A stretch of 64,000 nucleotides of DNA, from NCBI GenBank assembly GCA_916048095.2, contig OU696578.1:8165545-8229544 (forward strand), written 5' to 3'. The translations under genes and the position numbers were made by a program. Each line of letters begins with the position of its first letter. The stretch's first letter is position 1. This document shows positions 5,610 to 59,754 of the stretch, piece by piece. The stretch is from Sacculina carcini (lineage: Eukaryota; Arthropoda; Thecostraca; Sacculinidae). A model generated the notes under the pieces. The model saw only the letters and a program-made list of their open reading frames with translations. It did not search any database and had not been told where the DNA came from.

Positions 5610-6440
5610 CAGTGTTATATAACACTGTTTTTACCGAAAAAATAAAGAGCTGAATTCTGCTAGAACTCAGCCAGTTAACTGCCTAAACAGAACAAAGACA
5701 ATTCACATTGTTTCATGACCTTCTTGATCATCATTCGTTTCTGCTTTATCATCATGATCATCTTCATCATCTGATCCTTCATCATCTGACTCGTCATCTG
5801 ATTCCTCGTCATCCTCATCGGATTCGTCATCTGAGTCTTCGTCATCATCATCACCTTCTTCTCCATGATCGCCGACGTCTTCGAGGTGAGAAGAGACGGA
5901 TCGAGTGATGGGTGCGTGGTTGCGGCGAATTCTTGATACGGCAGCGGCTGCAGTGTTCGTACTCGACACTATCGCCTTGAGAACGTTATTGACGCCAACC
6001 TCAAAACGACGTATTTCTTCAGCTATTTCTCGCTTGCGTTGCATCACCTTGTCAATGACGGCAGTCAACGTGGCCTCGACTCTCTTGGTCAGCTTCACCA
6101 GATCGGGTCCAGTTGGATCAACTTCGACAGGGGCGGATGTGCTCGGCAATTCACCATCTTCCTTGAGAACCTCTCCGACCACCGGAACTGGATCTTCCTC
6201 GGACACCAAACCAGAACTATCCACTGTTGATCTTTCCAAATAAAAAATAATGCTAAAACTCAGAACCAGTATTGAAAATGTCCTCAAACTCATTGTGGTT
6301 AAATATTAAATTGGTACTGGTTCAATGGAAAACAAAACTTCATGTAGTCATTACACACGGTAATTACGCGTGAACGCTACGCAAAAAAAAAGATTTATTC
6401 TCTTAATATTCACGTGATTTTCATTCACTGCGACTTTCAA
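5610..6440 (-). repeat. Left arm of a large inverted duplication
   Basis: Read on the minus strand, this arm matches 10840-11680 read on the plus strand, covering 5' flank, whole gene and 3' flank. Homology extends past the stop codon through TTTAGGCAGTT and CTGGCTGAGTTCTAG to CAGTGTTATATAACA, and upstream through CCATTGAACCAGTACCAAT and CGTTCACGCGTAATT to CACGTGAATATT. The arms fade out beyond these points. About 4.4 kb separates the arms. Confidence 0.88.
5703..6293 (-). CDS. Secreted acidic protein, copy 1 (unknown family)
   Basis: Single-exon 196-residue protein, not recognised. Residues 1-19 (MSLRTFSILVLSFSIIFYL) look like a signal peptide. A Pro/Ser/Val-rich segment follows, then an amphipathic helix at about 64-110 with alternating charged and hydrophobic residues (VKLTKRVEATL, KREIAEEIRRFEVGV). 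RIRR at 121-124 is a furin-type processing site. The tail from about 139 is almost entirely Asp, Glu and Ser with SDDE repeats, which could bind divalent cations. The paralogue at 10996-11586 has the same length and differs at about eight positions. Start chosen because both copies share homology from this Met. Possible roles such as extracellular matrix, mineral or mucus protein are speculation. Confidence 0.8.
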   Translation of the reverse strand: MSLRTFSILVLSFSIIFYLERSTVDSSGLVSEEDPVPVVGEVLKEDGELPSTSAPVEVDPTGPDLVKLTKRVEATLTAVIDKVMQRKREIAEEIRRFEVGVNNVLKAIVSSTNTAAAAVSRIRRNHAPITRSVSSHLEDVGDHGEEGDDDDEDSDDESDEDDEESDDESDDEGSDDEDDHDDKAETNDDQEGHETM

Positions 6441-10839: not shown

Positions 10840-11680
10840 TAGTATTGAATATATATCACGTGAATATTACAATTCATTTGTCTTGAGAAAATATCATTTT
10901 TCGCTGATCGTTCACGCGTAATTTAAATATGTTATTAATGACTGGATTAATTTTTGTTTTCCATTGAACCAGTACCAATTGAATATTTAACCACAATGAC
11001 TTTGAGGACATTTTCAATACTGGTTCTGAGTTTTAGCATTATTTTTTATTTGGAAAGATCAACAGTGGATAGTTATAGTTTGGTGTCCGAGGAAGATCAA
11101 ATTCCGGTAGTCGGAGAAGTTCTCAAGGAAGATGGTGAAGTGCCGAGCACATCCGCCCCTGTCGAAGTTGATCCAACTGGACCCGATCTGGTGAAGCTGA
11201 CCAAGAGAGTCGAGGCCACACTGACTGCCGTCATTGACAAGGTGATGCAACGCAAGCGAGAAATAGCTGAAGAAATACGTCGTTTTGAGGTTGGCGTCAA
11301 TAACGTTCTCAAGGCGATAGTGTCGAGTACGAACACTGCAGCCGCTGCCGTATCAAGAATTCGCCGCAACCACGCACCCATCACTCGATCCGTCTCTTCT
11401 CACCTCGAAGACGTCGGCGATCATGGAGAAGAAGGTGATGATGATGACGAAGAATCAGATGACGAATCCGATGAGGATGACGAGGAATCAGATGATGAGT
11501 CAGATGATGAAGGATCAGATGATGAAGATGATCATGATGATAAAGCAGAAACGAATGATGATCAAGAAGATCATGAAACAATGTGAATTGTCTTTGTTCT
11601 GTTTAGGCAGTTCACTGGCTGAGTTCTAGTAGAATTCTGCTCTTTATTACTTCGGTAAAAAACAGTGTCATATAACAGAG
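10840..11680 (+). repeat. Right arm of the large inverted duplication
   Basis: Mirror partner of 5610-6440, containing gene copy 2 with both flanks. Non-coding flanks have diverged more than the coding part: for example, the arm's 5' flank needs small gaps to align, whereas the genes align without any. That suggests selection or local gene conversion on the gene. Confidence 0.87.
10996..11586 (+). CDS. Secreted acidic protein, copy 2 (unknown family)
   Basis: Paralogue of the minus-strand gene at 5703-6293, also 196 residues, with the same signal peptide (differing at residue 2), the same helix, the same RIRR site and the same Asp/Glu/Ser tail. Changes are concentrated in residues 27-49 just after the signal peptide (for example SSG to SYS, PVP to QIP); only two conservative changes fall in the acidic tail. 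An upstream in-frame ATG at 10954 is rejected because homology with copy 1 begins at 10996. The two genes are transcribed away from each other with about 4.7 kb between start codons. Function unknown. Confidence 0.8.
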   Translation: MTLRTFSILVLSFSIIFYLERSTVDSYSLVSEEDQIPVVGEVLKEDGEVPSTSAPVEVDPTGPDLVKLTKRVEATLTAVIDKVMQRKREIAEEIRRFEVGVNNVLKAIVSSTNTAAAAVSRIRRNHAPITRSVSSHLEDVGDHGEEGDDDDEESDDESDEDDEESDDESDDEGSDDEDDHDDKAETNDDQEDHETM

Positions 11681-12375: not shown

Positions 12376-15300
12376 ATGACACAGACTCTTTTCGTTCAAG
12401 ATATGGAGTGGCAACCGACGGAGGATGGTTTGAAGCAGATTTTACAGTTGTTGAAGGAATCGCAGTCTCCGAATACTGAAGTTCAACTCGCCGTACAACG
12501 TGTATCCTTTTTAAACGAGTTTTTCAGCTGTATTTACAATGTTTCAAATTATGTGGGTTTTGTATCGTGTTTTTAGCGTATGCTTTTTCTATTTTGTTTG
12601 GTTGTTTTTGTTGTAATTGACCATTGTATATCGTTTTTTAACCACACCATGTGATTTCTTTTACTCGTCACAATAGCGCTTGGAGGAGCTCAACAATCAT
12701 CCACATTTCAACAATTATCTGGTGTATGTCTTGACACGCCTCAACACAGAAGGTGAGCGTTTTTGGTGTATATCTTAACTACTGATTGCACACTGTTGCA
12801 AGTTGATTATGCAATGATAGTGGGAATGATGGTGCATTATTGCAATGCCGTTCATTTTTATTGAAATTTGGATAATTTTATTGTTATTTCACGTATTGGT
12901 TTCACGTATACGTTTTCACGGTTTTTAGCATGTATGAACTGATATTCGCGGTTTGAAATATCATCGGGTTTCGTTTATTTTTAGTACCCCACCTTGAGTA
13001 TTATTATCAATATGATTAATTACAGGTAAATTCAGTAGCATGGGGGAAGAGTAATTCAAAGAAAACACTGTGCCTGTGAAAGTGGAATTACGTAATTCAA
13101 AGAAAACACTGCCTATACTTTTCCACGAAAATCTAGCTGTATTTTTGTTTGTGAACGTTTGGTTTCCAGCCAACAGTCTTCGGTGTGCGTATTGGCCGTA
13201 TGACTGTTCTGTCATGTTATATCCATAGGTCATGGGGCGGCGCTAGGATTTTTCCTGGGTGAGGAGTCTAAGGAAATTTTTGTTTGAGGGGGCTAAGAGA
13301 AACAATGCCTGGGTATTGGGGACCTACACTCGAAATGTAGCATAGCGAGCTTCTGTTTTGGCTGACAAAAAATTAAACTTGGCATTTCATATTAATCATT
13401 GGATGACTTTCGTGCAATGAAAACAAAAACAAAAAATAACCATCACGTTTATTCACTCTTTGAAATTTCGCAAACAATCTACATTTTATTAAATACATCC
13501 AAGTATCGTTGGCGGGCTGTAGTTTGCCTAGCTCTGCTATCAAGAGAGAGGGAGGGAGGAAGACGGTTTTCCCCTCCTCTTTCCTAGTAAACTTTCTGTA
13601 ACCGCCATTGTCAGATGTATCGTGCGATGTTGTGCAACATCTTTGTGTTGCTGAGCCTCTGGGATTCGTTTTAATGCAATGATTGCAGTGGTATCCAACT
13701 CTCTTTTCTCTCTGGCCAAGTGTCTGTTTCCGTGCGATCGCATTTCTCTGCGTGTGTGTGTGTGTTTGTGTGTGTGTTTGTCCCTACATCAGTGCTGTAG
13801 TTCCTAATATATTTGAATTATATTTATATAGGCCAGTGGTTGTAAGCCATCTCTTCATTTTCCACACAACACAGCGCTGATAAATTAAATAAATTTGGTT
13901 GTTACATCAAAGTGAATGTAATTAGAGGTCATTAGAAACAAAAATAAACGATTTTCAATTGATAAAAACACACATAGTTGTCCTGTTCTGTCCGACCTTT
14001 AGCTTCCCACTTGGCAACTCTTCCATTTCCCACCAGACAGGGGAATTCCCCACGGGCTAAGAACCACTGATTTATGTAATGATTATGGTTTTATTCATAA
14101 TTGATTTAGTATTGGTCAGTTTTTATCAGACATTTGTTTGACATATGACAATATAATACAATTTATACAATATGACATTCATCAGGGATTGTTTGAGTCA
14201 GCATTTCGTTGTTGCTACGTTGCAGCTCGTTATTGCATCTGCAATGAATAATCAACATTTCGAGCGCGTGTCTTGCAGAATTGATTGCAAGTACTCTGCA
14301 TCTTTTGTATCTTTCATTGCAAATGCAATGAATGGTCAACGTTTCGAGCGCGTCAGTGTGTTTTTGCAGAATTGATTGCAACACTGCACACATTGTTCGT
14401 ATTGCAGATTGTTGCGTGTTGCATAGGTTGCATGTCCGTTGCACGATCAACATCTAGCATCTATCAAGTTCAAGCTGTGTATTGCTAGCAGAGCAAATCT
14501 CAAACACGCGGCTCACGGCAATATAATTATTAAACCCTATCAAAATACCACTTGCAATAATTATTATTACCATAGATTCCGGCCCGTGTTTTAATACAAA
14601 ATTCTACTGCATATGTTCCATGGTGGGCTTGATAGCTAGATCTATTTCAGAGTTTAATTATTTTATTCATCCATAAGAACAAGCTTTATTGTAGTATCAG
14701 TTATATCAATGTTGATAAAGTACAAATATGTGCAATAGTTTGATGAACAATGTAAATTTACACGTAAATTATAGGAAGGAAGGGATTTTATTCAATTTTA
14801 TATGTAGAACAAACAGAACAATAGAAAAAATACTACCGGAGAAAAGTTCAAATTTTCACTGGACTTATTTGAGAGCCGTACAACTAGAAACCTAGTATTT
14901 CAGGTCTTCTGAAAAGTGGCATGTGTGTGTGTGTGTGTGCATGTATGTCAGACGAGGCAACTCGCTCTCTCAGCGGGCTAATTCTCAAGAACAATGTGCG
15001 TGCTCACTTTCACAAGCTGCCACCTGCCGTGTGCGAGTTTATCAAGCGCGACTGTCTGGTGGCCATCGGCGATCCGTCCTCATTGATTCGTGCCACCATC
15101 GGTATATACTGTCTTTCTCTATCCTCTCTCTATCTCTCTCTCTCTCTCTGTTTTTATCTCTCTCTCTCTCTATCTCTATCTCTGTTTGTTATTTCTCTCT
15201 CTCTATCTCTTTTTGTTATTTATCTCTCTCTCTATCTATGTTTTTTATTTCTCTCTCTCTCTATCTATGTTTTTTATCTCTCTCTTTTTCTCTCTCTATC

Positions 15301-18297
15301 TCTGTTTTTATTTCTCTCTCTCCTCATTTTCTGTCTCTTCTCTTTTTATCTATCTCTCTGTCTCTGTTTTGTGTTTTCTTTCTCTTTGTCATTCTCTTTC
15401 CGTTTTGTTTTCTCTCATTCTCTTTCCTTTTCTCTTGTTTTTATTTTTCTTTCCCTCTCTCTATCTCTTTCTCCATCTCTCGGTCTCTTCTTTCACTATC
15501 ACACCTTTTCTCTCACTATTCAATTCAAACTGTTATTTTCTCTCTGTTCCCGCTCTCTCCACACTGTGTGTCTGTCACTGTCTGTCTGTCTGTCTGTCTG
15601 TGTTTCTCACTCACTCACTCTCTCTCTACCAGCATCTATCACTCCTCTTGTGTTACATTATAATTCTACCATATCTATCTGTATGTGTGTGTGTAGGCAT
15701 TGTGGTGACGACTATTGCACAGAAGACAGAACTGACAGGCTGGCCCGAATTGCTGCCTCAATTATGCAACCTGATTGACTCCAAGGAGACGAGTACATGT
15801 GAGGTGTGTGTGTTCTTACACGGCCTTGCCTACACACACACACACACATACACACACACACACACACACACATATCGTTATGTTCATACATTCCTATACA
15901 TATACAAACATGTATACACATTTTAAGTAATTTTCAAAAGAATTTGCAAAAGAATTCACAAATAGTTCCCATTTCAACTGCGTTTTCATTCTTCCTGTGA
16001 CATTTGCAAAATGTTTTTTTTTGTCTTCAAAGTTTGGTATGGCTGCATTGAATATGTTTGATGAATTTAGTCGGCCAATAACAAATATATTTGTACAGTT
16101 AAACAGCGATATAAGACGCTAGTTGGGGTACAAACAATTCCACCACCACGTTGTTCTATCTTATTGCGCCGATTATACCAATATAACTGTGTGTTTATTA
16201 GTTTGAGACTCGTGGTACACGAGGATAATACAAAATAAACGTGTCTAATAGTGAATGAAACACAAATAAATAAATATATCGATGTTTAACTGTAATTGAA
16301 TTGTGTGTACTCTTGTGTGTGTGTGTGTGTGTTTGTGTGTGTTTTCTGTGTGTGTGTGTGTGTGTGTTGCAGGGCGCGTTTGGCACATTGCAGAAGATAT
16401 GCGAGGACTCTGCCGATATGCTCAACACGGACGCTCTGCCTAATCAGCCGCTAGGCATGCTGATACCCAAGTTTATCGAGTTTATCCGCCATTCCAATCC
16501 GAAAATCAGGTACAACAATATCGTCTGTGTTTTTTTGTTATTCAATTTCCTCTGTCCAAGTCCAGATTTGTGTGTGTATCGTACATGTGTGTGTGTGTGT
16601 TTGTGTGTGCTGTTTTTATGTTCTTATATACTCATAAATATATGTATTCATGTATGTGTACGTACGTATATGTATGTGTGTGTTTGTTTGTGTGTCGTAT
16701 AAGAGAGTCTTTGAGTTTTCAGTGTTTTTTATTATTGAGTTTTTTAACAACATTATTCATTATAGAAATCAATTAGATAATAGATAATAGTTGTTCATAA
16801 ATATAAATCATTTATATTTATACTTGAAAAATTGATGATTCACTCAGATGTAAATTACTTTTGAAGTTTATATACTTCAAATATTCTTCTTTATATTCTC
16901 CTATTCTCCTATTATATTCTCCTATTCTTATACTAAAATTCTAGACCGAAATAAGCGATTCTTTTACACACAGGAAACTGCCGTATATACACACATATGT
17001 TATGAATGTGTGTGTGTATGTCTGTCTGTGTGTGTGTGTGTGTGTGTCAGGTCGCACGCTATCGCCTGTGTCAATCCGTTTATCATCGGTCGTACTCAGA
17101 TTCTGATGGATCACATTGATCGTTTCGTCGAGAATCTATTTCAGCTGGCCGGCGACGAACACGCCGACGTGCGCAAGAATGTGTGTCGTGCGCTGGTGAT
17201 GTTGGTCGAGGTGCGCATGGATCGTCTCATTCCGCATATGAACAATATTGTCGAGGTAAGCCTGACGTTCGTTTCGCCTCGTTCGTTACTGGTTTTGGTC
17301 TTGGTGTTTTATTGTTAAATCTCTGTGTGTGTGTAAGTGTGTGCCCTATCCAATCTTTAACATTTTCACCTTTTACCTTACATATTTCACCTTCCACCTT
17401 TTCATATTTCACTTTCCACCTTTCATATTTCACCTTCCACCTTTCATATTTCACCTTTCATATTTCACCTTCCACCTTTTATATTTCACCTTCCACCTAC
17501 ATACTTCACCTTCCACCTTTCATATTTCACCTTCCACCTTTTCATATTTCACCTTCCACCTTCCATATTTCACCTTCCACTTTTTCATATTTCACCTTCC
17601 ACCGTTTCATATTTCACCTTCCACCTTTCATATTTCACCTTCCACCTTTTCATATTTCACCTTCCACCGTTTCATATTTCACCTTCCACCTTTCATATTT
17701 CACCTTTTACCTTTTATATTCCACCTTCCACCTTTTATATTCCACCTTCCACCTTTTATATTTCACCTTCCACCTTTTAACAGGCCAGTAAGTCAGTATC
17801 TATTGTGTCTTGACTTAAGGTCTGTCTGCAATGAAAGGTCGCACAGAAGGACGTGCGTGTGTGTTTTCATCAATGCCTGCTCGTTGATTTTCCTTTATAG
17901 TCAGTGGATTGGATTGGATTTTGATTGGATTTATTAGCGCAGTTGTTGTGGACATTTTGTGGACTCGGCTCAGTGAGGGGAATTAGACAGAAAGAATGTT
18001 GTTTGCGCAGAATTGTGGCAAACAGTCTTGAAGACTCTTGTCTTCCAAAAATCATATTTATTTTTATAAACATTTGATTCTGCGTGTTTGTGGACCAAAA
18101 TTATTATACCTGCTTGATTTTGATATGTGTGTGCGTGTGTATGTTTTGTGTATGTGTGTGTGTGTGTGTATAATCGTGCATACACTGTGTGTGAACCTGG
18201 TGTGTATGTGTGTTTGTCTGTCATATTTATGTGTGCCTAGTAATGTGTGCGTGTATGTGTGAATATAAGTCTTTTTGTCAAGCGTATTCGAGACTAA

Positions 18298-18353
<56 letters not shown>

Positions 18354-18699
18354 TTTGTGCTAAATTAGTGGTTCTTAACCGGGTAACCGGTTCTTAATCG
18401 TTCTAGTTCCCAAGGGCTACGAGGAATGCTTTGAAATTTACAGAAAATATGTGTCATACCTATGATTTTTTATTTTTCCGGTAATTTTAAATCTGTATTA
18501 ATGAATATTGAATTGAATAATTTTTATTATCACGTCGTTTATAGTTTTATATTTTTCATTTAGCTATCGAAAGTGTGGGGGTGCGTAAACTGTCTGCCGA
18601 TTTGAAAAAGGCTGTCTGAACACTGAAAAACGTTGAGAACATACTGGAATATATATATAAAGGTTCCATTGACCAAATGTTTGTTTGTGTGTGTCGTGT

Positions 18700-18744
<45 letters not shown>

Positions 18745-21700
18745 TGTCGTGTGTGTGTCGTGTGTGTCGTGTGTATGTGTGTCGTGTGTGTGTCGTGTGT
18801 ATGTGTGTCGTGTGTATGTGTGTCGTGTGTGTATGTGTGTGTCGTGTGTGTGTGTCGTGTGTGTGTGTGTGTCGTGTAGTACATGCTGCTACGCACCCAG
18901 GACCAGGACGACGCCGTATCCCTGGAGGCTTGCGAGTTCTGGCTCTCGCTGGCCGAGGAACCGGTATGCAAGGCGGCACTGGCACCGCACCTCAACCGAC
19001 TGGTTCCGGTTCTGGTTCGCGGCATGAAGTACTCCGATTTTGACATTGTTATGCAAAAGGTAGTCCACTCTCTCTCTCTCTCTCTCTCTCTACAGCTCTC
19101 TTGCTCTGTACTTCTTTCTGTGTCATGTGTGTCAATATCACCACCGTGTGTATACTGCAAGCTAACCAAAAGATATACAGAAAAAAGAAAGAGAATTTCC
19201 AAAAATTATACGATTTTTAGTGAGCAAGGTGAAAGGTGATGAAGTAATATTTAAAAAAATAAATCAACGATGAATCAAATAAAGTTATCAAATATATTAA
19301 ATAATCTAATACAACAGCAGACGGCTTAAGATAATATAGTAACTCAAAATCAACTGGAAACTTACGAATTTTTAGTATATGTTTAATGTATTTGAAAATG
19401 TGTTTTAACCTCTGGGCATCTGCATGTGTGTGTGTGTCTGTCTGTCTGTCTGTCTGTCTGTGTTTGTCAAAAAGACGTAGATTTGTCAAAAACGACAATT
19501 TAACACTGTCTTAACAAAACTGATTAATTTTTCTTAAACGTATTTTTTGTTGGCTGTATGATTTTTAAGCATGCGACGTTTTTTCCATTTCTTCAATGTT
19601 CAATACTTAATACAAACACACACACATATTCTGGGATAGGTATAATCACACAACAATTGTCAATTTCACCAAACATAACTCTACAATACTTATGCATTTA
19701 CAAATAACAATACTATGTGTGTATGTGTGTGTGTCAAGTTTGTTATATATAGATGTCTTAATATGGGGTTTTGTGCATGTTTACAGTATGTCAGTATGTG
19801 TGTGTGTGTTTATGCCTGTGTGTGTGTGTGTGTGTGTGTTGGCAGGGTGATATTGAAGAGGACTCAATGGTGCCAGATCGCGACGAAGATATTCGTCCCA
19901 GATTTCACCGCTCTCGCTCTCATCAGCTGGAACACGGCGCTGGCGCAGGAGAGAGTGGACAGAGTGGAGGAGGAGGAGGGGCAGATGATGAGGACGATGA
20001 TGATGATGATGCCGGAGACTGTGGTGATGATGGCCAACTGTCAGACTGGAATATCAGTGAGTATCACACACACACACACACACTCTCTCTCTCTTTCTCT
20101 CTCTGATTATCTCTCTCTCTGTATCTCTCTGATTCTCTCTGTATCTCTCTCTTTGTCTCTCTCTTTATCTCTCTGATTCTCTCTCTGTCTCTCTCTTTAT
20201 CTCTCTGATTCTCTCTCTCTCTATCTCTCTCTCTCTGTCTCTCTCTTTATCTCTCTGATTCTCTCTCTCTCTCTTTATCTCTGATTCTCTATCTCTCTCC
20301 TTAATTCTCTGACTCTTTCTCTCTTTCTCTGATTCTCTCTCTCTCTTTATCTCTGATTCTCTCTCTCTCTTTATCTCTGATTCTCTCTCTCTCTCTCTAT
20401 CTCTCTCTGATTCTCTTTGTATTTGTATGTCTGTTTGTATCTCTCGCTTTGTCTCTGTTTTCATATATCTCTGTGTGTGTGTGTCTGTCTGTCTGTGTGT
20501 GTGTGTAGGAAAGTGTAGCGCGGCCGCGCTCGATGTGATGGCCAATGTGTTCGGCAACGACCTGCTGCCCATTTTGCTGCCGATTCTCAAGGAGACGCTG
20601 TTCCATCACGAATGGCCGGTGAAAGAGTCGGGAATTCTGGCGCTGGGAGCCATTGCCGAAGGTTCATCTCAAAAGTCTTTCTCTTCGTCCTCTTAATCTC
20701 TGTTCTTATCCTACGTTCTTGCTTTTGTGTGTTGTTTTCAGCGGTTCGATTGTTTATTCTCATGGCTAATCGGTTTTCTTTTTCCTCTCCCCAATTTTGT
20801 TTGGATTTCATTTTTTCTGATCTTGTATGGTAGTATTTACCCAGCGCAATTTCGTCAGTTGGTGTCTACGTATACTCTTCCTGTCTGTGTGTATGTGTGT
20901 GTGGCAGGGTGTATGTCGGGCATGTTGACTCATCTGCCCGAAATTGTGCCATTCCTCATCAACTCCCTGTCAGACAAGAAAGCGCTGGTACGTTCGATCA
21001 CCTGTTGGACTCTGAGCCGCTACTCTCACTGGGTCGTTCAACAGCCACACGAACTCTACCTCAAGCCGCTGATGGCCGAACTGCTGAAACGTGTGCTGGA
21101 CGCCAACAAGCGCGTGCAGGAGGCGGCGTGTTCGGCGTTCGCCACTCTTGAAGAGGAGGCGTGCACAGAACTGGTGCCCTATCTCGGCTTCATCCTGCAG
21201 ACGCTTGTATATGCCTTCACCAAGTACCAGGCGAAGAATCTGCTGATTCTCTACGATGCCATCGGTACATTGGCCGATTCGGGTGAGATGGACTATCTCG
21301 TTGTTCTTCATCTCTTCATCTTATCATCATAGCTTCTAATCCTCTTTTTGAGCATCCTAGCTCTCTTCGCTTGCTAATGCAACACGCCGGACACATTTGA
21401 GTCGCTAGCGATTCGTAACGAACATTTTCCTTGCCACTAAAACTGTCTCTCAATTTGATACTGTAGTAATATATATAAAATATACCATACCTAGTTGTAT
21501 TATTCTAAGCAAACCATGACTATTTGTATGTATGTGTGTGTGTGTGTGTGTGTGTGATGCTGACCAGTGGGTGCGCATCTCAACAAGACTGAGTTTATCG
21601 AGCTACTGATGCCGCCTCTTATTGTCAAGTGGAACATGTTGAAGGACGAAGACAAGGATCTGTTTCCTCTGCTCGAGTGTTTGTCTAGCGTGGCCACAGC

Positions 21701-24700
21701 TCTTCGCGACGGCTTCCTTCCCTATGCCGAGCCCGTTTATCGTCGCTGCGTATCGCTAGTCGAACAAACTCTCAACCAAACGCTGGCCCACCAGCAGAAT
21801 CCTCAGAACATCGAAGCGCCCGATAAAGACTTCATCATAGTCGCGCTCGATTTGCTCTCGGGTCTGACCGAAGGTCTAGGAGCCAGTATTGAGCCGCTGG
21901 TGAAGACCTCACAGCTGATGCAACTGCTGTTTCAAGCTATGCAAGATCCGGTGCCCGAGGTGCGTCAGAGTAGCTTTGCATTGCTCGGCGATCTGACCAA
22001 GGCGTGTTTTGAACATGTTTTACCGTGCATCAGTAAGTGATTGCATCGACCATGCAACATACATACACACACACACACACAGACGTACATACACATAATC
22101 AGTCACACACACACACACACAGAGACGTACATACACATAATCAGTCACACATACATAGACACACAGATATACACACACACACACACATAGATAAACAAAA
22201 TACACACATACATGCAACATACACACACACACACATAGACGTACATACACATACTCAGTCACAGTCACACATTCACTTCTAGTATGTATCGGTGTGTGTG
22301 TGTGTGTGTGTTGAAAATCACATCTGTTCTGTTCTGTTTAATCTGTTTGTTTGTCTGTTTGTTGTCTGTGTTTGTTTGTATGTTTGTGTATATGTGTGTG
22401 TGTGTGTAGGTGTTTTTGTCTGTTGTCTATGTGTGTGTTTATCTATGTATGTGCGTGTGTGTGTGTGTTTATCTATGTATGTGTGTGTGTGTTTATCTAT
22501 GTATGTGTGTGTGTCTGTTTGTGTGTGTGTGTGTCTTGTCTGTTTATCTGTGTATGTTTGTGTGCATATCTATTTGTGTATGTCTGTCTGTGTGTCTGTG
22601 CCTGTATGTTTGCAGCTGATTTTTGTGGCATTCTAGCGCAGAATCTCAATCCTCAGCATGTATCCGTGTGCAACAACGCCACCTGGGCCATTGGCGAAAT
22701 CGCCGTCAAAATGGGTACTCAAGAACATTAATAATTACCCATAATAACTATACTCAAGAACATTAATTATTACCCATAATAACTATATGTGTTTATAATA
22801 TAATTTTATATGAATGAATATAATTAATACGTTAGATGTAATATATAATTTACAACTTTTACCGTATGTATGAGTATTATGTATAATTATATATACACAC
22901 ACTTATACGCACACAATAATATGCGAATATGCTTATATCAACAAATTCTACGGAAAGATAGAAGAAAGATTTTTCTTGACCTCTTGTAGTAAACATGACA
23001 AGAAGATTAAATAAAGAATTAACCAATAGTAATTGCTATATTATTCCAAGGTGTTTATATGACTTGAATATATATATGGTTGATGGTTAATATTAGTTTT
23101 ATTATTAATAAATTCATGTTGTCTTCACTTTCGCCAATAATGTCTACGTAAACAATATATCACTTGTGTGTGTGTGTGTGTGTTTGTGTATTTAGGTGTA
23201 ATTTTGTGTGTGTGTGTTTGGGTGTCCTTGTGTGTGTGTTGGGGTGTCCTTTTGTGTGTGTGTGTGTGTGTGTGTTGGGGTGTCCTTTTGTGTGTGTGTG
23301 TGTGTGTTTGGTTGTCCTTTTGTGTGTGTGTGTGTGTGTATCCTTTTCTGTGTGTGTGTGTGTGTTTGGGTGTCATTTTGTGCCTGTATGTTTGTGTGTG
23401 TTTGGGTGTCATTTAGTTTATGTATGTGTGTGTGCTTGGTTGTCATTTTCTGTGTGTGTATTTGGGTGTCGTTTTGTGTAATGCGTGTGAGTGTGTGTGT
23501 GTGATTGCGTGTATGTATCAATATGTGTGTTTATGTGTGTATGTATATGTGTTTGTATGTGTTTGTGTGTGTAGGTGGTGAGATGCAGTCATACGTGCCA
23601 ATTGTTCTGCCTCAACTGATAGCCATAATCAACCAATTAAACACGCCGAAAACACTTATGGAAAACACCGGTATGTTTCTATGTTTGTTTGTTTGTGTGT
23701 TTATATATATATGCTACTGTGTATGTGTGTGTGTGTGTTTGTTTTCTTATTATTCCGACTATAGTATTGAATTTATTTTTATTTTGTTTATATTTGTTAG
23801 TCTAGTTTAATATATTTATTTGTTTATATCTAGTTTTCTGCTTGATTTTGTACGTGCGCGTTTGTATGTATGTGTGTGTGTGTGAGTGTTTTTGGTGACC
23901 GTATGAAAAGTGAGATATAAATGTCCTAATGTAATGTAATGTGTAATATTTTCAGCTACAGTTTTTACAGTATGACGCATTTTTACCAATATTTCCGCCC
24001 ATTTACTGATTGATTAATATTGCCTTTATCTTGATTAGTTTAATTTTCCTGATATTATGTCCCTGATAATTGTCTTAATATGTGTCTATGTAAGCGTGTG
24101 TGCGTTTGTGTGTATCTGTGTGTGTTTATATATGTGTGTATTTGTAGATATATGTGTGTGTGTGTCCTAGAGACCTTCCAAGTGTAGGGCGCTATATAAT
24201 GTAATGTAATCTACCTAATATAATGTGTGTGTATGTGTGTATGTTATAGCCATTACCATCGGACGTTTGGGACTCGTGTGTCCCAAAGAAGTGGCCCCAC
24301 ATTTGCAACACTTCATGAAGCAATGGTAAACTGCACTTCCCACCCCCTCTTCCCATCTATCCCACACTCTTTTCCCAACTATTTCCCACCTCCCAACTCT
24401 TGCTGTCTATTATTAGTATTTTTATATTTTTTGTTTTTCTTATTCATACTTTCACACATAGAAATTTACTTCTTGCTGGCAAGACACACAACACAGTATG
24501 TTTGTATGTCTGTGTGCATGCATGCATGTGTGTGTGTGTGCAATTATGTTAGCAATTAATATAAATAAACAACTCGAATCATAATTGAATCATATTTATA
24601 AACCATTTAATGCATCTGTGCAATCAGAATATTACACTAATGTGGGTCAACTTTTATTATACGCTATATGTGTGTGTGTGTGTGTCTGTGTGTGTGTGTT

Positions 24701-25870
24701 CAGGTGTACGTCGTTGCGTAATATTCGCGACAACGAGGAGAAAGATTCGGCGTTTCGTGGCATCTGTCATATGATTACACTAAATCCCAACGGTGTTGTC
24801 CACGTGTTCATCTTCTTCTGCGATGCCGTCGCTAGCTGGGTCAGCCCCCGAGCCGATCTCAAGGAGATGTTTCACCGAGTAAGTATGTGACTTGTGAGTC
24901 ACTGAGTGACTCACTTACTCACTCACTCACTGAATGACTCACTGACTCACTAGTTACTAATTACTATACTTGTTTTTTTTACTATTACCAATACTTACTA
25001 CTTGTTTTTACTACTACTTATTTTTACTTCTTATTACTAATACTTATTACTTATTTTTACTACTCCTTATTACTAATTTTTACTATTTGTTACTTATTTT
25101 TTACTAATTTGTATTACTTATTTTTTATAATTCTACTTCTTACTTATTATTACTAATTCTTTGTGACTTGTGACTCGCTGAATGACTCACTAGTTACTAA
25201 TTACTATACTTGTTTTTACTATTGAACGCTAATTTTTATTACTACTTATTTAGTATCGCTCATTCTTGTTACTTATTTTTATTACTAATTATTACTCATT
25301 TTTACTACTACTTATTACTAATTATTTTCACTTTTACATACTATTACTTAATAATACTAATTCTTTAAACTTATTATTGCTTAATGAGATTAATAGTTCT
25401 TATTACTTATTTTTACTACTGCTTATTACTGCTTGCTATTTATTTACTTATTTACAAATTCATACTCTTGTTCATCTGGTCACTACAATTTTGTCATCAT
25501 AACAGAAAATATCATATTTATCTTTTATTCATAACATTTTGTTTTTTTCTCATTTTTGGAGCGTGTTTATTTTATCTATGTGTATATCTATGTGTGTGTG
25601 TGTGTTTCAATTCCAACTAATTTTCTTCTCAATTTCGAATAAATTTAAATATCACATTAGCATTGAATAACAACAAAATAGAACATATTTCAAATCACAA
25701 TATCATGATTCCAGTATAACTGTGTGTGTATGTCTGTATGTCTGTGTGTGTGTATGTGATAGATTTTGCACGGCTTCAAGAACCAGGTTGGCGACGAGCA
25801 ATGGAACCAATTCAGCGCCCAGTTCCCGCCCATGTTGAAGGAACGGCTGGCCACCAACTACGGCGTCTAA
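12376..25870 (+). CDS. TNPO1: Transportin (karyopherin beta-2) nuclear import receptor
   Basis: HEAT-repeat importin that carries PY-NLS cargoes through nuclear pores and releases them on RanGTP. Sixteen coding exons: 12376-12501, 12677-12752, 14952-15101, 15697-15803, 16373-16509, 17051-17255, 18880-19059, 19846-20056, 20509-20661, 20908-21282, 21568-22032, 22616-22714, 23575-23670, 24250-24325, 24704-24878, 25763-25870. All junctions are GT/AG and phase-consistent, giving 912 residues (human about 898). Landmarks: [15 protein letters not shown] near the N-terminus, [13 protein letters not shown], the acidic H8 loop in exon 8 (six Asp in a row, needed for Ran-coupled cargo release), and W482 and W752, which sit where human W460 and W730 line the NLS groove. 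It ends [11 protein letters not shown]. Loss of the loop length is not seen. Fourteen of fifteen acceptors lie in (TG)n-rich tracts, and introns 4, 8 and 11 also carry (CA)n near the donor. TNPO2 is not excluded in name, but invertebrates usually have one gene. Confidence 0.97.
13232..13330 (+). mobile_element. MITE family A, truncated copy in TNPO1 intron 2
   Basis: GGGCGGCGCTAGGATTTTT followed by GAGGGGGCTAAGAGAAA and CTACACTCGAAA matches the left half of family A. The right terminus is missing. Confidence 0.6.
13835..14069 (-). mobile_element. hAT-type MITE, family D, copy 2
   Basis: Begins CAGTGGTTGTAAGCC and ends GGGCTAAGAACCACTG. Its right part (CCTGTTCTGTCCGACC, CCACTTGGCAACTC) is the reverse complement of the copy at 3032-3265, so it is inserted in the opposite orientation. 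Target duplication is not clear. Confidence 0.7.
14241..14382 (+). repeat. Short tandem duplication in TNPO1 intron 2
   Basis: A block running from GCAATGAATAATCAAC through TTTCGAGCGCGT to CAGAATTGATTGCAA is repeated about 90 bp later with few changes. The area 14160-14480 is dense in TTGCA/TGCAA motifs and has several weak inverted pairings. No coding sense. Confidence 0.6.
15110..15640 (+). repeat. CT-rich low-complexity tract filling TNPO1 intron 3
   Basis: Several hundred bases of (CT)n with interruptions, all pyrimidine-rich on the sense strand, starting a few bases after the exon 3 donor. It gives way to (TG)n just before exon 4. Ser/Leu-rich frames across it are read-through artefacts. 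Confidence 0.9.
16096..16292. mobile_element. Mariner/Tc1-type MITE in TNPO1 intron 4
   Basis: Left end CAGTTAAACAGCGATATA and right end ATATCGATGTTTAACTG form inverted repeats. Both sides are flanked by TA (16094-16095, 16293-16294), the target duplication of the Tc1/mariner superfamily. 197 bp, non-coding. A diverged second copy is at about 47745-48050, sharing CCACCACGTTGTTCTATC and GGATAATACA. Confidence 0.8.
17340..17780 (+). repeat. 21-bp minisatellite in TNPO1 intron 6
   Basis: About twenty tandem units of roughly 19-23 bp built on CATATTTCACCTTCCACCTT with small length variants, starting about 80 bp downstream of the exon 6 donor. All copies are pyrimidine-rich on the sense strand. 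The Phe/His/Leu/Pro repeat frame across it is an artefact of near-21-bp periodicity. Confidence 0.93.
17800..18879 (+). repeat. 3' part of TNPO1 intron 6: GT arrays
   Basis: Contains a pure (GT)n run at 18298-18352, a hAT-like terminus fragment (GTGGTTCTTAACC) at about 18369, and a long (TGTGTCG/TGTGTATG)n array at 18675-18877 that abuts the exon 7 acceptor (GTCGTGTAG). No exon was found inside. Confidence 0.8.
19060..19845 (+). repeat. TNPO1 intron 7: short CT run, family C fragment, TG tracts
   Basis: A (CT)n run follows the donor. A fragment of dispersed repeat family C lies at 19140-19200. (TG)n and TCTG runs occur at 19425-19460 and 19715-19842, a short (CA)n at 19615-19627. The last tract abuts the exon 8 acceptor GTTGGCAG. 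Confidence 0.75.
20057..20508 (+). repeat. TNPO1 intron 8: (CA)n, then CT-rich array, then (TG)n
   Basis: Sense-strand (CA)n at 20066-20082 lies directly after the donor. A long array of CTCTCTGATTCTCTCT-like units fills 20083-20420, and (TG)n/TCTG at 20472-20506 abuts the acceptor. The intron therefore consists almost entirely of simple repeats. Confidence 0.9.
22059..22602 (+). repeat. Facing (CA)n and (TG)n blocks filling TNPO1 intron 11
   Basis: After the exon 11 donor the sense strand is (CA)n-rich with ACATAC and GACGTAC interruptions (22059-22272), then from 22291 it is (TG)n-rich with matching GTATG interruptions up to the acceptor of exon 12. The two roughly 210- and 310-base blocks are complementary and separated by only about 20 bases. 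Confidence 0.9.
22715..23574 (+). repeat. TNPO1 intron 12: AT-rich half and TG-rich half
   Basis: The first 400 bases are AT-rich and include, at about 22890-23000, a dispersed block (ATGCGAATATGCTTATATCAA, broken here as ATGCGAATATGC and TTATATCAACAAA) that recurs at 36605-36720. From 23165 to the acceptor it is (TG)n with GGGTGTC interruptions. Confidence 0.75.
23671..24249 (+). repeat. TNPO1 intron 13 with two L2-like 3' tails
   Basis: Two short fragments end in sequence typical of L2/CR1-clade retroelement tails: AGTGAGATATAAATGTCC at about 23910 and GGGCGCTATATAATG at about 24187, each followed by (TAATG)n. Elsewhere the intron is TG-rich up to the exon 14 acceptor GTTATAG. Confidence 0.5.
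24879..25762 (+). repeat. TNPO1 intron 15: ACTTATTACT-type repeats
   Basis: 24890-25490 is a degenerate array of CACTGACTCACT and TTACTACTTATTACTAAT units, T-rich on the sense strand. The end of the intron switches to (TG)n before the exon 16 acceptor GTGATAG. Confidence 0.8.
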
Positions 25871-26355
25871 CAACATCCGGCATCTGTTCTTCAACAACTC
25901 CATGATGATGTTGATGTTGACCGCGTGTTTCTGGTGTTTCTCGGCTCAGCCGTGTTTTTGTCTATGTTTCTCTCTCTCTCTGTCTGTGTGTGTGTGTGTG
26001 TGTTTGTGTATTGCTATTATATGTTGTGTGTGTGTGTGTTAAGTTGCGTTTTGGCACGTGTGTGTATGTCTGTCTGTCTGAGTGTGTATGTGTGTGTGTG
26101 TGTGGCTGAGTGTGTTTATATATGTGACAGTCACACACATACATGCACATACACACACATACACATACACACACACACACATACACACACATATATACAC
26201 ACTCACTCACACACATACACACACTCTCTCAGACGCACACACATATACACATACATACACTCACTCATACACATGGCTGGTAGCGTTTATCAAACGTGTG
26301 TGTGTGTGTGCGTTATTTGTGCATGTTAATGTATCTTGTCTTGTCTATGACAGTT

Positions 26356-30093: not shown

Positions 30094-42222
<12,129 letters not shown>

Positions 42223-45076: not shown

Positions 45077-59754
<14,678 letters not shown>

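Follow-up and report, generated by a model that had tools for sequence, protein, structure and literature searches.

Does an intron whose two halves can pair through complementary dinucleotide repeats reveal how the introns of a genome are built, or does it owe its form to a feature of splice sites in general? The question is raised by a transportin-1 (TNPO1) intron at 22033..22615 on the plus strand of the window, i.e. the whole 64-kb stretch of DNA analyzed here. This intron, numbered 11 in a preliminary description of the sequence and the 10th of the 14 TNPO1 introns that follow the first, begins with GTAAGT and ends with TTTGCAG, and its boundaries are exact, since the flanking TNPO1 exons join in frame and match transportins. 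It holds a CA-rich arm on the donor side (22059..22272; 58% CA/AC and 4% TG/GT dinucleotides) and a UG-rich arm on the acceptor side (22291..22602; 56% TG/GT and 1% CA/AC), both of which are imperfect repeats. The exact ends and the dinucleotide composition confirm the preliminary description of the intron as essentially two complementary blocks, CA and then UG. Folding of the introns had been proposed as a check, and the prediction for 22033..22615 is a strongly folded RNA with one long stem, having a minimum free energy of -245 kcal/mol compared with a mean of -205 (sd 9.5) for 10 dinucleotide shuffles; the predicted helix reaches from about 22061 to about 22609, and 100 pairs span more than half of the intron. 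According to such predictions, the pre-mRNA of CA-UG introns can fold with the splice sites close together, with a putative effect on splicing.

The gene itself is well supported. The exon preceding 22033..22615 matches transportin-1 in the PDB (E 1.7e-73), and 15 exons read by eye, including those flanking 22033..22615, form a single frame of 870 aa up to the stop, with a product that matches transportins over its full length; with the first exon, whose end coincides with a codon boundary, the total comes to 15 introns with GT-AG ends. Among the best 120 of 2987 matches, the best full-length named one comes from an acorn barnacle, Amphibalanus amphitrite, with 81% identity along the entire query, followed by an unnamed protein (80%) and, as the next named ones, by proteins of termites, a mayfly and a cricket (74%), while the highest score among these 120 belongs to a longer protein from a spider (69% identity, 85% of the query covered). 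Judging from these protein matches, the host is an invertebrate and most likely a thecostracan crustacean. The preliminary description had attached wider interest to the paired arrangement should the genome be that of an invertebrate, and the barnacle as nearest named full-length match, among those 120, speaks for exactly this.

CA followed by UG had also been described for other introns of the window, and the order was found in each of them. In TNPO1 (all plus strand), intron 4 (15804..16372) has CA close to its donor and UG at its acceptor, and intron 8 (20057..20508) combines a donor CA, a long CT middle and an acceptor UG. In ODAD1, on the minus strand and identified by PF21773 in one exon, there are three such introns, taken to be those numbered 3, 5 and 6: one with a CA arm at the donor and UG on the acceptor side (57220..57839), one with a short donor CA, an acceptor UG and a LINE-like insertion (50400..57037), and one with a long donor CA arm and UG runs about 200 nt from the AG (49534..50199). 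The opposite strand of this gene is uninformative, since CA-then-TG is its own reverse complement. The last case lies in a gene that had been called SHOX, a name supported as far as homeodomain (PF00046) only, in which a plus-strand intron with boundaries set by reading alone (36427..39512) holds CA arrays at 38545-39132 and an acceptor UG tract at about 39477-39498. The remaining TNPO1 introns share the UG tract at the acceptor, be it without a CA run (12753..14951, 15102..15696 and, with a long tract, 17256..18879), with a single CA run distant from the donor (19060..19845), with UG on both sides (16510..17050) or with a UG-rich donor side (23671..24249); the tract is short in 20662..20907 and 24879..25762, long in 22715..23574, and also present in 21283..21567 and 24326..24703. 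A counter-example is the first TNPO1 intron (12502..12676), which has neither a UG tract nor a CA arm.

Several further repeats and insertions were seen in the window. Within the longest of these ODAD1 introns, 50602-54594 has the appearance of a LINE insertion, with two plus-strand open reading frames (ORFs) of 323 and 1006 aa, the second of which is reverse-transcriptase-like by reading. The long homeodomain-gene intron contains two 14-mer minisatellites (37406-37682 and 37816-38409) with consensus units that, save for one base, are mutually reverse-complementary. TG arrays followed by CA arrays, i.e. the opposite order, occur in the TNPO1 3' UTR (25985-26274), where they could form a hairpin in the mature mRNA. 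Elsewhere in the window, 5628-6353 and 10936-11661 form an inverted repeat of 726 nt, 97% complementary and 4.6 kb apart; each arm carries a near-identical acidic ORF of 200-211 aa, and between the arms an ORF of 500 aa encodes a BED zinc finger (PF02892), suggestive of a transposon.

To tell a rule from a single observation in this genome (264 Mb in 43 contigs), we assembled introns with exons supported either by homology or by an uninterrupted reading frame. Ab initio gene finding on the sampled stretches yielded many doubtful exons, and only introns of recognized genes were retained. The final set comprises 40 introns, with 46 acceptor sites and 42 donor sites from 11 genes: 14 introns are from TNPO1, five from ODAD1, and the rest come from four contigs, sampled at fixed positions as 20 stretches of 10 kb (two of these stretches being half N); four further stretches gave no intron from a recognized gene. 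The genes outside the window are CHD1, a prenyltransferase (FNTB), spectrin, Na/K-ATPase beta, CLIC, eIF2-gamma, MED22, EAF and one coiled-coil gene. Of these, CHD1, the prenyltransferase, spectrin, ATPase beta, MED22 and EAF score above the curated Pfam cut-off; two genes with scores under that cut-off we take, by recognition, to be CLIC and eIF2-gamma, and the coiled-coil gene is named by reading alone. The introns outside the window include 17 with predicted ends and four read by hand (MED22, two in eIF2-gamma and one in spectrin), and six acceptors and two donors entered as single sites, of which at least three of the eight (CLIC_up, EAF_up and eIF2g_dn) are off by one base, an offset that, judged by eye, is insufficient to alter any count. 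Two introns with uncertain ends (L009 954-1723 and L014 1137-1328) were excluded prior to counting, and two whose initially predicted donors were wrong (L016 3923 and L025 7507) entered with corrected donors. The first TNPO1 intron stands outside all counts, and seven introns of L002 and L007, which had been fetched by similarity to CA tracts, were kept out of the final set and used in the pooled swap test described below (43 introns before length filters) and in separate "biased" rows of the order and polarity tests. Some analyses use the 36 boundary-checked introns of the set. In their GT-AG ends and in a reading frame conserved over the junctions, these agree with canonical U2-type introns. 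Three genes contribute 25 of the 46 acceptor sites (TNPO1 14, spectrin 6, ODAD1 5), and sites clustered in genes are non-independent, therefore the p-values given here are optimistic.

A sense-strand UG tract just upstream of the AG is present in most of the introns examined, with a bias that peaks over the final 60 nt. Counted over the terminal 100 nt, TG outnumbers CA at 41 of the 46 acceptors and CA outnumbers TG at five (Wilcoxon p=4e-8, optimistic owing to the clustered sites). At least three TG units lie inside the last 43 nt at 38 of the 46 acceptor sites, drawn from 11 genes, compared with a single site for (CA)>=3 and none for (CT)>=3, and, judged by reading, a UG acceptor tract occurs at least once in 10 of the 11 genes. 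A canonical C/U-rich polypyrimidine tract was not found at any of these 46 acceptors: no pyrimidine run of at least 9 nt occurs in -40..-4, runs of at least 6 nt occur in four, and the median longest run is 3 nt. The mean composition of positions -25 to -5 is U 0.45, G 0.37, C 0.08 and A 0.09 across the same acceptors. In the profile of 36 introns, TG/GT steps make up roughly 60-78% between -10 and -28, and in 25 of the 36 no more than 40 nt separate the last run of at least four TG units from the end of the intron; the AG-free zone upstream of the acceptor has a median length of 61 nt, and a search for branch-point motifs in the introns gave no clear picture. Because TG, at 0.64 close to the acceptor, is down to 0.23-0.30 upstream of -63 in the 27 introns of at least 400 nt, and because neither CA nor TG consistently prevails in mid-intron (14 vs 15 of 29), the acceptor bias is position-specific and not a simple effect of the transcribed strand. 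The tract is not obligatory, as eight of the 46 sites have fewer than three TG units near the AG, including all three introns of one gene (L027), and the first TNPO1 intron also does without it.

We consider it probable that these are ordinary U2-type GT-AG introns with 3' splice sites in which (UG)n stands in the polypyrimidine tract's place. The UG tract would do the job of that tract, and it might be read either by U2AF2, via the U's, or by a GU-preferring factor such as PUF60 (known as half pint in the fly) or CELF/Bruno. Since the genome is rich in dinucleotide arrays, UG arrays would be kept and CA arrays removed at acceptors, while CA arrays would be tolerated, and perhaps mildly favored, in the 5' half of introns, and CA-UG introns would simply be the subset where both arrays occur. 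Introns with CA first and UG second, such as 22033..22615, then look like extreme cases of an unusual acceptor design.

Alternatively, the two arms could have been selected together, as proposed for fish, with the donor CA arm and the acceptor UG arm forming a stem that loops the intron out and replaces U2AF2; as a general account of these introns we regard this as unlikely. It has predicted structures in its favor: apart from the low free energy of 22033..22615 relative to its shuffles, 15804..16372 and the ODAD1 introns 57839-57220 and 50199-49534 lie more than 5 sd under theirs, and 20057..20508 lies about 1.4 sd under. Yet 12 of the 16 introns folded (three over 1100 nt were left out) fall under the shuffle mean, so that folding under the shuffles is not special to CA-UG introns, and the ODAD1 introns a and b, which lack a CA arm, are more than 3 sd under their shuffles.

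The order of the arrays gives this account its other support. Both tracts (at least four units each) are present in 12 of the 36 boundary-checked introns, and 11 of these 12 are mainly CA-first (p=0.006, uncorrected), in agreement with the claim that CA precedes UG inside introns. Much of this order follows from the acceptor rule, because the bias falls to 8 vs 2 (p=0.11) once the last 60 nt are removed. CA-first order may nonetheless extend past the acceptor tract: beyond the last 63 nt, a 5'-CA/3'-UG polarity is obtained by Wilcoxon test (p=0.006; n=27 introns of at least 400 nt) but is not significant by sign test (17 vs 10, p=0.25), both uncorrected after several windows and thresholds had been tried. 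This polarity is seen in genes from the random regions (p=0.014, n=11), less so in window genes (p=0.16, n=16), and is carried mostly by a few introns; unexplained by the tract alone, it counts against the UG acceptor tract as the whole story. The preliminary description had called for counting the two orders over all introns, and here the outcome is split. The excess of CA-first order holds within the introns of our set and is absent from crude placement counts over the genome: for (CA)8 and (TG)8 separated by 10-40 nt there are 1253 CA-first placements vs 1654 in reverse, and for gaps of 250-280 nt, 13659 vs 14672. Such genome-wide counts are a weak and unfair test, because they mix introns with TG-exon-CA neighbors, from which the reverse order also arises, and because long arrays inflate the placements. 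Counts of neighbor order were rejected as a test, as CA-TG and TG-CA changes along one sequence are necessarily equal within one; their gap bins, the sole informative part, gave no clear difference. In one EAF intron (L022 6454-7880), (TG)n directly follows the donor and (CA)n lies close to the acceptor; this intron offers a natural control for pairing without the order.

Against co-selected arms, no clear coupling between them was found in the introns of our set. Over the first 100 nt of the 42 donors, CA outnumbers TG in 23 and TG outnumbers CA in 18 (p=0.33), and a run of four or more units is of CA in 11 and of TG in 7. When donor CA and acceptor UG (at least four units, within 100 nt of each end) are tabulated over the 40 introns, seven have both, three CA only, 22 UG only and eight neither, and the donor CA arms do not co-occur with acceptor UG tracts above chance (Fisher p=1, 40 introns); 22 of the 29 UG-acceptor introns are thus without a CA arm. 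Nor, by predicted duplex energy, did a donor end favor the acceptor end of its own intron over those exchanged among introns (P=0.21 for arms of 80 nt in 40 introns, 0.24 for 150 nt in 34 and 0.07 for 250 nt in 23). With UG acceptors frequent in the absence of a CA arm, the EAF intron in reverse order, donor CA barely exceeding donor TG and swapped arms pairing no less well, the idea of the CA/UG pair as an organizing principle is not borne out. Two further features of the donor side were observed. In the 40 nt past the donor hexamer of 36 introns, C predominates over G in 27 and G over C in 7 (p=0.0016). A CLIC intron (L025 1635-2291) opens with a nearly pure (CA)n array a few bases past the donor and has a weak UG acceptor, being a CA arm without a partner.

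Neutral growth of microsatellites, in which abundant CA/TG arrays come to lie in introns without any function there, is improbable as an explanation of the whole, and is disfavored for acceptors: CA/TG arrays are indeed very frequent in the genome, and their orientation is near balance on the donor side and in mid-intron, but strand-symmetric neutral growth would not orient 41 of 46 acceptors one way. Most of the genes examined are presumably housekeeping genes, which argues against the UG tract being a site for a regulatory protein (TDP-43/TBPH), and among the 27 last runs of pure UG that were found, 17 are at most 17 nt long (interrupted UG sequence often extends upstream), short of the 12 guanosines that pUG quadruplexes are reported to prefer, making either of these roles in place of a basal acceptor element very improbable, even though missplicing of CFTR exon 9 is reported to need TDP-43 on a UG-rich sequence upstream of the 3' splice site (PMC12171016).

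The reading of (UG)n as a stand-in for the polypyrimidine tract is of interest beyond this locus. Among the splice signals of animals, the polypyrimidine tract commonly counts as near-universal, and UG acceptors without a C/U run would provide a natural test of the division of labor among U2AF2, PUF60 and CELF; they could also mislead standard gene finders, and introns that naturally have or lack a CA arm would be plentiful material for studying the role of repeat pairing in splicing. A bolder and tentative extension, which we hold to be doubtful as it stands, is that in a crustacean lineage (UG)n microsatellites have taken over from the polypyrimidine tract in most introns, with a changed reader of the 3' splice site (PUF60/half pint or CELF for U2AF2), and that CA arrays in the 5' half fold a subset of the introns shut.

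Known systems, compared here on the basis of excerpts from the cited papers, each share a part of this arrangement. Among crustaceans, Daphnia introns have a sense-strand bias of GT over AC repeats (PMC3152781), which is the same preference as here; in Daphnia pulex, however, it is reported as a bulk strand bias together with T-rich motifs, without a stated position at the 3' splice site and with poly-T, CT and CTT as the dominant intron motifs, whereas the bias described here concerns placement at the 3' splice site (PMC3152781). None of the titles and abstract openings listed in literature searches describes UG tracts replacing polypyrimidine tracts in a crustacean. A UG-rich segment near the 3' splice site is shared with human sites that depend on PUF60: at one such site the choice of acceptor and branch point needed the UG-rich segment, poly(GU) competes PUF60 binding more efficiently than poly(U), and CELF/Bruno-like proteins are described as readers of UGUGUGU (PMC6093180). 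The human case involves a regulated set of exons, and the exon tested also has a UC-rich tract, whereas here the C/U run is lacking and most genes examined have the UG tract (PMC6093180). The closest parallel to 22033..22615 itself is found in the (AC)m-(GT)n introns of fish and lamprey, in which AC-rich and GU-rich ends pair, and which in zebrafish are spliced without U2AF2 (Lin et al. 2016, Genome Res 26:12, as relayed in PMC7404189 and PMC9198270). In both cases, AC- and GU-rich tracts occupy the two ends of the intron and predicted pairing brings the splice sites together; the fish-type arrangement, with AC-rich sequence near the donor and GU-rich sequence near the acceptor, is found in 22033..22615, in the other introns named by the preliminary description and in 7 of the 40 introns overall, and on paper, as far as the analogy goes, 22033..22615 resembles its fish counterparts. 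Unlike in fish and lamprey, a UG tract is present at most of the acceptors examined regardless of a CA arm, coupling of the arms was not found, and the host is a crustacean. Our best reading is, then, that the self-pairing CA/UG introns are a subset resembling the (AC)m-(GT)n introns of fish, in a genome where, among the genes examined, the UG tract is common and the CA arm the exception.
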